Notes under the pieces: generated by a model | Database searches by the model: none | The model's input: only the letters and a program-made list of their open reading frames with translations | What the model was told of the DNA's origin: nothing | Source of the DNA: Clostridia bacterium | GTDB taxonomy: Bacteria; Bacillota; Clostridia; Christensenellales; Aristaeellaceae | NCBI GenBank assembly: GCA_017938695.1 | Contig: JAGBBA010000073.1 | Span: 1 to 34,096, forward strand | DNA length: 34,096 nucleotides | Direction of reading: 5' to 3' | Made by a program: the position numbers and the translations under genes | Shown: positions 21,848-28,831 of the stretch, in pieces | How the letters are laid out: each line of letters opens with the position of its first letter | Numbering within the stretch: the stretch's first letter is position 1

Positions 21848-22788
21848 TCCTGCTTTTGCAATACACCCTGCTGTTTGCCTCGGTGCTGCTGCTGGTGGCT
21901 CTGGGCGGCTGCTTTTCTGAACGCAGCGGCGTGATTAACATCGGCCTGGAGGGCATCATGGTCATCGGTGCCCTGGGCGGTGCCCTGGTGATGAAATTCC
22001 TGCCTGCCGAAATGGGCGCGCCCATGATGATCACGGCGACCATTCTGGCCAGTGCGCTGGCGGGCATGCTGTATTCTCTTCTGCTGGCGGTGGCGGCCAT
22101 CAACTTCAAGGCTGACCAGACCATCACCGGTACGGCCATGAACATGCTGGCCACCGCTGGTGCCACCGTGGCTGTGAAGGCCATGAACACTGCTGCTTCC
22201 GGCGGCAGCGACGTGTCTTCCGACATCATTTACACCCGTGCCCGCGATATGTTCATCGTGCGCTTTGGCAATTTCGAGTTCAACTGGTTCATGGTGGTGG
22301 CCTTGGTGGCCCTGCTGATCTCCTGGGTGCTTTTGTACAAGGTGAAGTTCGGCCTACGGCTGCGTGCCTGCGGCGAGCATCCCCAGGCGGCGGACAGCGT
22401 GGGCATCAATGTGTACAAGATGCGCTACGCTGGCGTGCTGATCTCCGGCATCCTGGGCGGCATTGGCGGCATTGTGTACATCACTGCTGGCGTCAGCTCC
22501 TGGAAGTTCGAGAACGGCGTGGCGGGCTTTGGTTTCCTGGCCCTGGCCGTAATGATCTTCGGCCAGTGGAAGCCCTTCAAGATCGCCCTGGCGGCCCTGC
22601 TGTTCGGCTTCTTCCGCGCCCTGGGCAACGTGTACACCGGCTTCGACTTCCTCAAGAACCTGAACCTTCCCAGCGGCGTGTACAACATGCTGCCCTACAT
22701 CATCTCCCTGATCGTCCTTGCCCTCACCAGCAAGAGCTCCCTTGCTCCCAAGGCTGAAGGCATTCCCTACGACAAAGGCAGCCGTTGA
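21844..22788 (+). CDS. Nucleoside ABC transporter permease 2 (NupQ/YufQ type)
   Basis: A 314-residue second permease of the same family, with eight to ten membrane segments. [16 protein letters not shown] in the first quarter, [22 protein letters not shown] in the cytoplasmic coupling region near residue 180 (family-typical, here quoted only in part as [12 protein letters not shown]) and a glycine-rich [14 protein letters not shown] follow the family pattern. It starts within the stop of permease 1 (ATGA) and ends the operon; a hairpin array and terminator follow. With the binding protein and ATPase it makes a complete importer, most likely for purine nucleosides, beside the purine synthesis genes. 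Confidence 0.92.
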
Positions 22789-22789
22789 C

Positions 22790-22898
22790 CAGGGGCTTTG
22801 CCCCTGCCAGAGGGGCGTCGCCCCTCTGGACACCCCACGAAGGGCTTTCAGCCCTTTCGAAACCCATCCTGCGGTTATCTCGCAGGGTGGGTTTTCTG
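22790..22898 (+). terminator. Triloop hairpin train and terminator after the transporter operon
   Basis: Hairpins at 22790-22806 (7 bp), 22807-22816 with 22820-22829 (10 bp, loop GTC) and 22840-22846 with 22850-22856 (7 bp) are followed by a 13-bp stem (22861-22873 with 22881-22893, one mismatch or wobble) and TTTTCTGTT. The last is a credible intrinsic terminator; the first three belong to the triloop repeat family. Confidence 0.75.
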
Positions 22899-22900
22899 TT

Positions 22901-23002: not shown

Positions 23003-23079
23003 AAATGCGAAACGAAACATTACAAAACTCAAAAAACGTTCGGATTTGTATTGACATGTGGTAACGGTTACGGTAAAAT
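23003..23079 (+). promoter_or_regulatory. purE: purE operon promoter with candidate PurBoxes and palindrome
   Basis: The promoter is strong: TTGACA (23051-23056), a 17-nt spacer and TAAAAT (23074-23079). Just upstream, 23035-23047 read on the minus strand is AAATCCGAACGTT, which fits the B. subtilis PurBox AWWWCCGAACWWT at 12 of 13 positions. A degenerate partner in opposite orientation, AAATGCGAAACGA, lies at 23003-23015 at roughly the normal spacing. A separate palindrome, GTAACGGTTAC (23061-23071), sits between -35 and -10 and looks like a LacI-family half-site pair. PurR control is therefore plausible but unproven; no regulator gene is in the window. Confidence 0.7.
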
Positions 23080-23109
23080 GAATCGTAATGTTTTGCAGGA
23101 GGTATCCGC

Positions 23110-23193
23110 ATGTTGATGCTGTGTATGAGCTGGAGCAAGCGTTGTACCTTCTACCGCCATACCTTTTTCCAGGATAGCAGGAGCGCAGTGTAA
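23110..23193 (+). CDS. Candidate leader peptide of the purine operon (27 codons)
   Basis: A short ORF in the purE leader with an excellent ribosome site, AGGAGG (23097-23102), 7 nt before ATG 23110. The 27-residue peptide begins MLMLCMSWSKRC, with three Met in the first six residues, and ends in AV and TAA at 23191-23193. Its stop codon forms the last three bases of the 5' arm of an intrinsic terminator, so a ribosome finishing the peptide would cover the hairpin. Codons 8-11 also contain bases able to pair with the 3' arm of that terminator. This arrangement suggests a translated attenuator rather than chance, but expression has not been shown and no similar peptide is known to me. Confidence 0.55.
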   Translation: MLMLCMSWSKRCTFYRHTFFQDSRSAV

Positions 23194-23217
23194 CTTCTTA
23201 CGCTGAGCTCTTTTATT
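23181..23217 (+). terminator. Leader terminator (candidate attenuator) of the purine operon
   Basis: GAGCGCAGTGTAA (23181-23193) pairs with TTACGCTGAGCTC (23198-23210): 13 positions with one mismatch and one wobble, tetraloop CTTC, then TTTTATT. An alternative helix is possible between GAGC, A, AGCGT (23133-23142) and ACGCT, GA, GCTC (23200-23210), which would remove the 3' arm from the terminator. It lies 36 nt ahead of purE, so full-length operon mRNA requires read-through. Confidence 0.65.
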
Positions 23218-23253
23218 GTGGAAAGACTTCCCGATTCAGAAAGGAAGAACGAT

Positions 23254-23739
23254 ATGAAAAAAGTTGCCATCATCATGGGAAGCGACAGCGACCTGCCCGT
23301 TTTGAAGCCTGCCTTCGAGCAGCTGCGCAAGCTGGACATTCCCTTTGAAGCTCATGTTTATTCTGCTCACCGCACCCCTGTGGAAGCGGCTGAATTTGCC
23401 CGCAACGCCCGTGATAACGGCTTTGGCGTGCTGATCGCCGCTGCTGGTAAGGCGGCCCATCTGGCCGGTGCCCTGGCTGCGCAGACCACCCTGCCCATCA
23501 TCGGCATTCCGGTGAAGTCCTCCACCCTGGACGGCCTGGATGCCCTGCTGTCCACCGTGCAGATGCCCTCCGGCATGCCGGTGGCGACCGTGGCCATCGA
23601 CGGCGCGGCCAATGCTGCCCTGCTGGCTGCCCAGATGATCGCCATCGAGGATGCTGACCTGGCTGCCAAGCTCAACGCCCAGCGCAAGGCCCAGCATGAT
23701 GCTGTCATCGCCAAGAACGACGCGCTGGTCATCGACTAA
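23254..23739 (+). CDS. purE: 5-(carboxyamino)imidazole ribonucleotide mutase PurE
   Basis: Purine step 6: moves the carboxylate to make CAIR. The 161-residue protein has the usual length, [11 protein letters not shown] near the start, VYSAHRTP with the catalytic His in the middle of the first third, [17 protein letters not shown], and [14 protein letters not shown] followed by [12 protein letters not shown]. The active-site segment reads GKAAHLAG where E. coli class I enzymes have GGAAHLPG; related variants are, from memory, common in Clostridia. Whether it uses N5-CAIR (class I, with PurK) or AIR plus CO2 cannot be settled here; purK is not in the window. ATG 23254 follows AAGGAAG (23241-23247) at 6 nt. 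First gene of the operon. Confidence 0.95.
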
Positions 23740-26907: not shown

Positions 26908-26921
26908 GGAGGAACAACCAT

Positions 26922-27653
26922 ATGCAGACCTACGATTTGAACGAACTCCTTGCTGGCAATACCTATCCCGGCCGCGGCATCGTGCTGGGCTTGGACGAAA
27001 CTGGCGAAAACGCTGTGATCGTGTACTTCATCATGGGCCGCAGCGTCAACAGCCGCAACCGCATCTTTGAAGAAACCGATGAGGGCATCATCACCAAGGC
27101 CTATGACGAGAGCAAGATGACCGATCCCCACCTGATCATCTACGCCCCCGTGCGCGCCCTGCCCGACGGCATGACCACCATCGTCACCAACGGCGACCAG
27201 ACCGATACCATCTACGATTTCATGAAGGACGGCAAGACCTTCGAGGATGCCCTGCGCACCCGCACCTTCGAGGATGACCGCCCCAACTGGACCCCCCGCA
27301 TCTCCGGCGTGGTGAAGGTGGAGGACGGCAAGGCCGAATACAAGCTGTCCATCCTCAAGAGCGACTGCGGCGACGAGAACAGCGTCCTGCGCTACTTCTA
27401 CGACTACTGCCAGCCCAAGGCGGGCGAGGGCCGCTTCATCCATACCTATGTGGGCGACGGTAACCCCATTCCTTCCTTCGAGGGCGAGCCTGAGAAGGTG
27501 ACCCTGAAGGGCGATATCGAGCAGCTGGCCCTGAACACCTGGCAGAACTTGAATGAGGACAACAAGGTTTCCCTGTATGTTTCCTTCATCAATCTGAAGA
27601 ACGGCGAAACCGACAGCATTATTATCAACAAGCACGAGCAGGATGAGGAGTGA
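26922..27653 (+). CDS. purO: IMP cyclohydrolase, PurO-like (archaeal type)
   Basis: Last purine step: closes FAICAR to IMP. The 243-residue protein belongs to the IMP cyclohydrolase family first described in archaea (PurO), not to the N-terminal domain of bacterial PurH. Family-like segments are NTYPGRGIVLGLDETGENA near residue 12, IVYFIMGRSVNSRNRIF near residue 35 and PRISGVVKVEDG near residue 125. ATG 26922 follows AGGAGG (26907-26912) at 9 nt; the ribosome site overlaps the purN stop. Directly followed by a stand-alone AICAR formyltransferase, which supplies its substrate, so the two together replace PurH. Confidence 0.87.
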   Translation: MQTYDLNELLAGNTYPGRGIVLGLDETGENAVIVYFIMGRSVNSRNRIFEETDEGIITKAYDESKMTDPHLIIYAPVRALPDGMTTIVTNGDQTDTIYDFMKDGKTFEDALRTRTFEDDRPNWTPRISGVVKVEDGKAEYKLSILKSDCGDENSVLRYFYDYCQPKAGEGRFIHTYVGDGNPIPSFEGEPEKVTLKGDIEQLALNTWQNLNEDNKVSLYVSFINLKNGETDSIIINKHEQDEE

Positions 27654-27658
27654 GAACC

Positions 27659-28831
27659 ATGACGGAACTGGAACTGAAGTATGGCTGCAACCCCAACCAG
27701 AAGCCTTCCCGTATTTTCATGAACGAGGGCCAGCTGCCCATTGAGGTGCTCAATGGCAAGCCCGGCTATATTAACTTCCTGGACGCCCTGAACGGCTGGC
27801 AGCTGGTGAAGGAGCTGAAGGAGGCCACCGGCCTGCCTGCTGCTGCTTCTTTCAAGCATGTGAGCCCCGCCGGTGCCGCCGTGGGTATGCCCCTGGACGA
27901 GACCCTGCGCAAGATCTACTTCGTGGGCGACGTGGAGCTGTCCCCCCTGGCCTGTGCCTATGCCCGCGCCCGCGGTGCTGACCGCATGTCCTCCTTCGGC
28001 GACTGGATCAGCCTTTCCGACGTGTGCGACAAGGCCACCGCGCTGCTGATCAAGCCCGAGGTGTCCGACGGCGTGATCGCCCCCGGCTACACCGACGAGG
28101 CCATGGAGATCCTGATGCAGAAGCGCAAGGGCGGCTACAACATCGTCAAAATTGACCCCGACTACAAGCCCGACCCCATCGAGCGCAAGCAGGTGTTCGG
28201 CGTGGTGTTCGAGCAGGGCCGCAACGAGTTTGAAATCAACAACGCCCTGCTGGACGACATCGTGACCAAGAACAAGGATCTGCCCGAGGACGCCCGCCGC
28301 GACCTGATCATCGCCCTGATCACCCTGAAGTACACCCAGTCCAACTCCGTGTGCTACGCCAAGGGCGGCCAGGCCATCGGCATCGGCGCAGGCCAGCAGA
28401 GCCGTATCCACTGCACCCGTCTGGCCGGCCAGAAGGCCGACAACTGGCTGCTGCGCCAGCATCCCAAGGTCCTGAACCTGCCCTTCGTTGAGAAGATCGC
28501 CCGTCCCGACCGCGACAACACCATCGACGTCTACATCTCCGACGACGCCGACGAAGTGCTGGCCGACGGCCGCTGGCAGCGTTTCTTCACCGAGCAGCCT
28601 GAAGTGCTGACCCGTGAAGAGAAGCGCGCCTGGCTGGATCAGCAGACTGGTGTTGCCCTGGGCAGCGACGCCTTCTTCCCCTTCGGCGACAACATCGAGC
28701 GTGCTAAGCGCAGCGGCGTGAGCTATGTGGCTCAGCCCGGCGGCTCCATCCGCGACGACCAGGTGATCGAAACCTGCGACCTGTACAATATGGTGATGAG
28801 TTTCACCCACATGCGCCTCTTCCACCACTAA
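27659..28831 (+). CDS. purH: AICAR formyltransferase, stand-alone (PurH C-terminal domain type)
   Basis: Penultimate purine step: formylates AICAR with 10-formyltetrahydrofolate. The 390-residue protein contains only the AICARFT part of PurH: LKYGCNPNQKPSRIF at the very N-terminus, the catalytic Lys-His in SFKHVSPAGAAVG near residue 66, and YTQSNSVCYAKGGQAIGIG then GQQSRIHCTRLAG near residues 230-260. The MGS-like cyclohydrolase domain that starts normal PurH (about 200 residues) is absent and there is no frameshift remnant upstream; PurO fills that place. ATG 27659 follows AGGAG (27646-27650) at 8 nt; GTG 27650 is a weaker alternative. A terminator follows 6 nt after the stop. Confidence 0.92.
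   Translation: MTELELKYGCNPNQKPSRIFMNEGQLPIEVLNGKPGYINFLDALNGWQLVKELKEATGLPAAASFKHVSPAGAAVGMPLDETLRKIYFVGDVELSPLACAYARARGADRMSSFGDWISLSDVCDKATALLIKPEVSDGVIAPGYTDEAMEILMQKRKGGYNIVKIDPDYKPDPIERKQVFGVVFEQGRNEFEINNALLDDIVTKNKDLPEDARRDLIIALITLKYTQSNSVCYAKGGQAIGIGAGQQSRIHCTRLAGQKADNWLLRQHPKVLNLPFVEKIARPDRDNTIDVYISDDADEVLADGRWQRFFTEQPEVLTREEKRAWLDQQTGVALGSDAFFPFGDNIERAKRSGVSYVAQPGGSIRDDQVIETCDLYNMVMSFTHMRLFHH

Follow-up and report, generated by a model that had tools for sequence, protein, structure and literature searches.

The leader of the purine operon in this clostridial genus holds a short upstream open reading frame (uORF) that ends within or next to the terminator stem ahead of purE, and comparison of related sequences indicates that this arrangement is real and conserved. 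What would such a leader do? We give even chances to its being a translation-controlled transcription attenuator, a race that senses polymerase speed beneath the control exerted by PurR. The two halves of this proposal are not equally firm: by analogy with known systems it is probable that a ribosome prevents termination at the leader, whereas purine NTP-dependent polymerase speed as the signal is the weaker part and can be put forward only tentatively.

Architecture of the purE leader

The window (the whole stretch of DNA analysed, 34,096 nucleotides) carries an operon assigned by Pfam the order purE-purF-purM-purN-IMP cyclohydrolase (PurO-type)-AICAR transformylase-purD-purL. The parts of the leader are collected in Table 1. 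The initial annotation had described a 27-codon ORF with AGGAGG at 7 nt and a terminator whose 5′ arm contains the stop codon of that ORF, and both descriptions agree with the sequence, the ORF list and the computed stem (the TAA occupies 23191-23193). The 168-nt leader is more stable than 200 of 200 shuffles (z -3.97), and the predicted 5′ UTR ahead of the Shine-Dalgarno sequence (SD) is about 11 nt long.

Table 1. Features of the purE leader in the window (positions count from the first letter of the window).
Feature	Position	Strand	Basis or remark
purE (AIR carboxylase)	23254..23739	+	Pfam; first gene of the operon
Leader ORF, 27 codons + TAA (ATG...GTG TAA), peptide MLMLCMSWSKRCTFYRHTFFQDSRSAV then stop	23110..23193	+	sequence, ORF list
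SD AGGAGG of the leader ORF, 7 nt before ATG	23097..23102	+	5′ side of the consensus SD helix
Predicted strong sigma-70-type promoter TTGACA-17-TAAAAT, 11/12 matches	23051..23079	+	also in relatives' sequences
PurBox-like site AACGTTCGGATTT, 12/13 to AWWWCCGAACWWT, just upstream of the -35 box	23035..23047	-	putative PurR layer
Anti-SD block UACCUUCU within the ORF, predicted to pair with the SD	23145..23152	+	MFE fold; consensus fold of 13 genus leaders
Predicted intrinsic terminator hairpin, -16.7 kcal/mol, holding the ORF stop codon	23180..23211	+	computed stem
U-rich terminator tract	23211..23219	+	sequence; TTTATTG after the stem

Other features of the locus deserve a mention. A palindrome-like sequence, GGTAACGGTTAC, lies at 23060-23071 between the -35 and -10 boxes of the purE promoter and is only loosely kept in relatives. 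Upstream, at 22785-22900, G+C-rich inverted repeats follow a transporter gene and resemble intergenic palindromic repeats. Within the operon, at 26916-28828, the PurH function appears to be divided over two proteins, one of the IMP_cyclohyd (PurO) type and the other with AICARFT_IMPCHas.

Conservation in the genus and beyond

PurE is present in 18/18 genus genomes (those whose titles were checked are MAGs), and before purE all 18 have a short ORF with a ribosome site whose stop lies in the terminator stem or at most 6 nt from it. This set comprises 17 leaders with a curated ORF plus genome G003, whose leader (L112) shows the matching layout with 27 codons encoding MARLSLFLFQRCACRRCVYTHSMRSEV and a stop. 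The second purE copy in G001 (L114) has the layout too. The distance from start codon to stem is 67-88 nt, and 70-74 nt in 13/17 genus leaders; L018 has a weaker SD. The initial annotation had named the relatives as the place to look, both for conservation of ORF, ribosome site and terminator and for genomes that keep the terminator and lack the ORF. Across the genus all three elements are kept and the ORF is found in 18/18, with L006, L007 and L008 ending in another frame relative to the stem, still a few nt away. One clade (L006-L012, L015, L016 and L114) has an extra hairpin between the transcription start and the SD, closed in several members by GTAAT with a pairing ATTAC or GTTAC; this hairpin is absent from the clade of the window.

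How far does the layout extend? The family PurE search gave matches in 155/200 genomes, and 100 leaders outside the genus were retrieved (for L131, L134, L140, L186 and L194 the stretch does not begin with a purE start codon, and purE positions may be a few nt off). A comparable layout occurs in one genome of another family genus (L017/L066) and, with unrelated peptides, elsewhere in Clostridia (L051/L060, L053/L062/L067/L082, L047, L068 and L070). The isolate Pseudoflavonifractor phocaeensis An901 (L108) has a comparable leader with a 23-codon ORF whose stop ends 10 nt before the stem. Eleven distant leaders (L043, L047, L051, L053, L060, L061, L062, L067, L068, L070 and L082) were chosen for an ORF ending near the terminator, so their open frames are not independent evidence; selection by eye also applies to 12 further leaders of the family (L116 onward) and to the ORFs assigned to them. 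In other family genera (L117, L118, L119, L123, L125 and L126) the ORF picked by eye crosses the terminator and stops between -13 and +1 of the purE start. That this read-through variant is meaningful is suggestive only, as 27/103 frames open across the stem stop near the purE start anyway, partly because ATGA at purE provides a stop. In two species (L078 and L095) purE is preceded by short leader ORFs that resemble each other (VFK.FSS..), have an SD, differ in length and again end near a hairpin.

Is the meeting of stop codon and stem more than chance? When a single terminator caller is used throughout, uORF stop and stem overlap in 15/18 genus genomes, and in L008, L010 and L014 the uORF ends 0-6 nt short of the stem. 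For comparison, 64 gene-end terminators were taken from the window and from 20 stretches in six genus genomes; just 4/64 overlap the stop codon of the gene they follow, and the median gap is 11.5 nt. Set against these, 17/20 uORFs (including L017 and L114) overlap (Fisher p 2e-11, for related rows). Across 80 named PurE loci, an SD-preceded uORF ends at the stem in 20/53 purE-leader terminators versus 7/201 other terminators in the same DNA (Fisher p 3e-10, for rows that share ancestry and are not independent); without the 8 from the genus and L066, the remaining 12/45 are still above the control (p 7e-6). When the sequence ahead of the terminator is shuffled, an SD-preceded uORF covering the terminator is expected in 8.1 of the 51 non-ZTP family leaders with a terminator, and is found in 28. 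Outside L001-L018 the excess is modest (10/33 vs 4.1 expected), and under a laxer SD rule it vanishes (16 vs 14.3 expected). Open frames are, moreover, common in this region: in the genus, frame +2 matches the ORF frame in openness (17/17), and in 32/54 frames of L001-L018 a stop falls close to the stem in any case. The genus result is strong and that for the rest of the family suggestive.

PurR and ZTP riboswitches

In Firmicutes, control of the purine operons is attributed to PurR and to riboswitches. Where does the leader stand with respect to these? The PurBox consensus, which we take to be AWWWCCGAACWWT, is the basis for calling AACGTTCGGATTT PurBox-like; its GTTCGG core is found upstream of the leader in 16/17 genus leaders scanned. 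The features of a PurR regulon of the B. subtilis type are thus both seen here, the predicted PurBox and a PurR gene in the organism's own genome (PF09182, E 4e-28), and PurR is found in 131/150 family genomes. The initial annotation had set a leader peptide apart from PurR and guanine riboswitches, the known regulators of such operons; leaving PurR aside here does not sit with a 12/13 match upstream of the -35 box in a genome with a PurR gene. Given both, the leader looks like a second control layer beneath PurR and a putative PurBox. In leaders of other genera (L117-L119, L123, L125, L126 and L128) a PurBox (like AATGTTCGGAAA) lies directly ahead of the leader SD, downstream of the promoter, and many genus leaders retain a similar GTAATGTTT ahead of the SD.

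In some relatives (L021, L042, L058, L105, L141 and L143) Rfam places a ZTP riboswitch at the same position before purE; the purE leader of the window has no aptamer match. A regular expression assigns 14/125 family leaders to the ZTP type, a count that misses some, among them L042, so the non-ZTP class may contain ZTP leaders. Among 20 further sources scanned with Rfam only ZTP was found, in leaders without a uORF, and none had both.

Elsewhere among the purine genes, PF01259 (purC) occurs at two or three places per genus genome, and PF00709 (adenylosuccinate synthetase) in 6/18 genus genomes, the organism's own not being one of them (completeness is 68-96%, which makes absence weak evidence).

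RNA pairing within the leader

The initial annotation had read the leader in terms of the attenuators of amino-acid operons, with an alternative pairing between 23133-23142 and the 3′ arm of the terminator. This pairing exists in the window, where the best duplex between ORF and 3′ arm has -13.8 kcal/mol (z -2.0). As a conserved element it has to be rejected: it is good in L001 (z -2.0), L004 (-1.6) and L018 (-1.2) and not in the other 14 genus leaders, and competing ORF pairing with the terminator arms is absent from the 17 leaders as a set (genus mean z +0.07 for the 5′ arm and +0.24 for the 3′ arm). Among 24 non-genus leaders L062 (z -2.9) and L070 (-2.3) pair well with the 3′ arm; the means of +0.17 (5′ arm) and -0.17 (3′ arm) again give no conserved antiterminator. 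Together with the lack of a control-codon run in the 17 genus ORFs, this leaves the trp-type logic unsupported.

What is conserved instead involves the ribosome site. Pairing of the leader SD with the ORF interior exceeds that in shuffles, with a mean z of -1.12 +/- 0.21 for the 17 genus leaders and of -1.20 +/- 0.26 for 24 others. Opening the SD also costs more than in shuffles, clearly so for the genus (z +1.10 +/- 0.25) and more weakly elsewhere (+0.43 +/- 0.23), with values below zero in L051, L060, L067, L082 and L128 and, in the genus, in L010 and L015. These pairing and opening-cost statistics use one curated ORF per leader in 41 leaders and exclude L112 and L114. In most genus leaders (L015 is an exception) the opening cost increases with transcript length, between 30 nt and 60 nt beyond the start codon. 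In the window itself the SD duplex is no better than its own shuffles (z -0.1), with a higher opening cost (z +1.24), so that the claim of an SD helix rests on the comparison across leaders.

RNAalifold on an ordinary alignment of 13 genus leaders gives two helices only, the SD:anti-SD helix (96.9% of cells paired) and the terminator. This alignment omits L003, L010, L013, L014, L018 and L112, mostly divergent ones, whose SD pairing z is -1.7, -0.4, -3.2, -1.0 and 0.0 for the first five (L112 not computed). Overall 96.2% of consensus cells are paired versus 93.6% in column shuffles (0/500 as high) and 45-78% in slid controls. Two-sided changes are seen at 3 pairs versus 1.7 in shuffles, a control not passed as 98/500 shuffles reach it; counted as cells there are 6, reached by no shuffle of 500. 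In the terminator stem 3/7 consensus pairs have two-sided changes. In the SD helix nearly all change is on the anti-SD side and mostly C/U, as expected if the SD is fixed.

Is the leader found before other genes? An RNA model of the leader run over the 18 genus genomes gives 16 matches above 31 bits, all purE leaders, 13 of them training sequences. The purE leaders of G003 (24.7 bits) and G014 (23.2) fall in the range of other matches and that of G013 is missed. Five weaker matches that were inspected are not leader-like (one marks the start of a gene within a long open frame, the other four are hairpins shortly downstream of a gene), and no such leader precedes the 20 purC loci read by eye out of 40 purC places. 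Within these 18 genomes and 20 purC loci, a wider purine regulon sharing the leader finds no support.

A proposed race between ribosome and polymerase

How might these parts work together? The default would be that the terminator forms and the purine genes are off, which we infer because nothing conserved in the RNA would compete with the hairpin; the one candidate positioned to block it would be a ribosome completing the ORF. Initiation before the anti-SD block is transcribed would bring a ribosome to the stop codon, where it would cover the 5′ arm of the terminator and allow read-through into purE. The SD helix would be the gate: the anti-SD block lies 43 nt beyond the SD, and initiation should be easiest as long as that block is still untranscribed. 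With plentiful purine NTPs a fast polymerase would make the anti-SD first, closing the SD and letting the terminator form; with scarce purine NTPs a slow polymerase would leave the gate open more widely and shorten the lag of the ribosome, which would then win. Low purine NTP would be a natural cause of slow transcription at a purine operon and would give the correct negative feedback. In this complete form (an SD open until the anti-SD is transcribed, and a slow polymerase admitting one ribosome that dismantles the terminator) a purine race attenuator in Clostridia is rather doubtful. From the initial annotation, the idea that leader translation controls read-through into purE is retained in that the ORF, SD and terminator are conserved and suitably placed; its trp-type pairing logic is dropped.

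The effect of the ribosome is deduced from this geometry and from data on E. coli, where bringing the stop codon of a translated gene closer to a terminator, to 5 nt instead of 28 nt ahead of it, reduced termination from some 90% to less than 10% (PMC4824070). For B. subtilis, terminators close behind stop codons have been tied in a review to runaway, uncoupled transcription (PMC7858274). The terminators of the genus also follow soon after stops (median 11.5 nt), so close coupling cannot be assumed. Runaway transcription would set the default to off and let the ribosome catch up only with a slowed polymerase; this evidence cuts both ways.

The proposal has precedents. Coupling-based attenuation is known for the pyrimidine operons of enteric bacteria; at E. 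coli pyrE the leader ORF (rph) is translated to or across the terminator. In 18/18 genus genomes ORF, SD and stop are arranged so that translation would run up to the terminator or over it, and in geometry the purE leader would work like these systems. It differs from them in standing on purine genes in Clostridia, not pyrimidine genes in enterobacteria, in an ORF that ends in the stem and holds an additional SD:anti-SD helix, in having a PurR layer and in having no evident nucleotide-specific pause tract. On this last point, the region from start codon to stem in the genus has 25% G and 20% A, which is no purine-rich tract, and pyrBI-like pause clusters are therefore not evident. For pyrBI itself, control works through translation of pyrL at its terminator (PMC5021804). 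A leader ORF there runs up to or over the intrinsic terminator of a nucleotide operon and a close ribosome prevents the hairpin, as would be the case in the purE leader. The trp/ilv-type attenuators and the hisS leader peptides of bacilli (PMC2965389) share a short ORF upstream of a terminator; unlike trp/ilv-type leaders, the purE leader has no control-codon run or conserved antiterminator, and its stop lies in the terminator itself.

What else could the leader sense?

Could the rate of initiation itself be the signal? Termination would then be set by GTP or ppGpp acting on IF2, or by the supply of formyl-Met, and not by polymerase speed, with the purine genes on when ribosomes initiate well. 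ZTP riboswitches report one-carbon stress, and their occupying the same place in relatives lends this idea some appeal, as does the SD-occluding helix, which makes initiation a plausible regulated step. A parallel comes from the fthC uORF motif of Streptococcus (uORFC-39-1), before a one-carbon gene and proposed to sense initiator tRNA (PMC11109978); in that Firmicute, too, an SD-like region, a short ORF and a terminator follow one another, although the stop lies in a second hairpin before the terminator, the gene is a different one and the comparison is by description only. The feedback would have the wrong sign, however, with purine synthesis switched off whenever scarce GTP or formyl-THF reduces initiation. 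The initial annotation had also linked Met1, Met3 and Met6 to initiation or formyl supply; Met3 and Met6 are not conserved (relatives begin MKLFTC.., MTCQQ.. or MSCQ..), and with this the formyl-Met idea loses its hint from the sequence. We regard a sensor of translation capacity as unlikely, though worth keeping in mind.

Is it then the peptide, or particular codons, that matter? In two clades (5 and 4 species) the uORF has pN/pS of 0.72 and 0.64 versus 0.08 and 0.04 for purE, with synonymous divergence (0.14 and 0.23) below that of purE (0.41 and 0.32); the stretch is therefore held at the nucleotide more than the peptide level. Such weak constraint on the peptide speaks for the act of translation and against an arrest peptide, and leaders of the TnaC, Erm or SpeFL kind, which require a conserved peptide, are disfavoured. 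The ORF frame has an excess of Cys codons in 12 representative leaders (29/275 vs 7/270 and 9/264 in the other frames) and in 12 further family leaders (20/240 vs 9/234 and 6/233), making them about three times commoner in that frame, in the family only, a pattern that fits no reading neatly. An attenuator in which a ribosome pausing at control codons, with Cys as the candidate, or a ligand sensed by the nascent peptide sets termination could draw on this enrichment. Yet the frame bias is absent from the 11 distant leaders (28/389 vs 25/381 and 21/379), the representatives share ancestry, and we know of no link between cysteine and purine genes. A paused ribosome would, moreover, have no conserved antiterminator to free and no codon run at which to pause, and with a peptide so weakly constrained we judge this explanation improbable.

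A known riboswitch (ZTP, guanine or another Rfam family) is rejected for the window's leader, which has no Rfam match at the gathering score and, below threshold, hits only two eukaryotic families (E 2.8 and 4.8). Could the SD helix and a 5′ hairpin form an aptamer of an unrecognised class, whose ligand governs how accessible the SD or the terminator is? An RNA of this kind would fit the nucleotide-level constraint seen in the ORF, a recurring TGTA[CT]CC block and the stable 5′ hairpin of one clade. Against it stand a consensus with two helices only, a window leader with a short predicted 5′ UTR and without that hairpin, and the Rfam scan of the 20 further sources, with ZTP alone and in leaders without a uORF; we hold this possibility to be slight. 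Least probable of all is that the ORF is incidental, be it a chance frame on an ordinary attenuator or a PurR roadblock, or a gene for a small protein whose end happens to overlap the terminator, since the open frames common in the region and the many family leaders without uORF or terminator (60/111 non-ZTP leaders have no terminator) are outweighed by an SD, start and stop kept in 18/18 genus genomes while the peptide drifts and by the overlap of stop and stem (15/18 vs 4/64; 20/53 vs 7/201).

Significance

Among the matches listed in open-access full text we recognised no leader-ORF attenuator on a purine operon, in a search where purE is inseparable from the word "pure". The available parts of three motif-discovery papers mention no motif before purE; the nearest ones in them belong to fthC in Streptococcus (the uORF motif) and to purS in Corynebacterium, the latter a riboswitch candidate (PMC8632094, PMC6429828, PMC11109978). 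If true, the race attenuator proposed here would be to purines what pyrBI is to pyrimidines, supplemented by a timing gate. It would operate in a lineage where the ordinary terminators point to uncoupled transcription, and it would stand where relatives use a ZTP riboswitch. With a ZTP riboswitch in some relatives and a uORF-terminator in others, purE offers a clean opportunity to study the replacement of one regulator by another.
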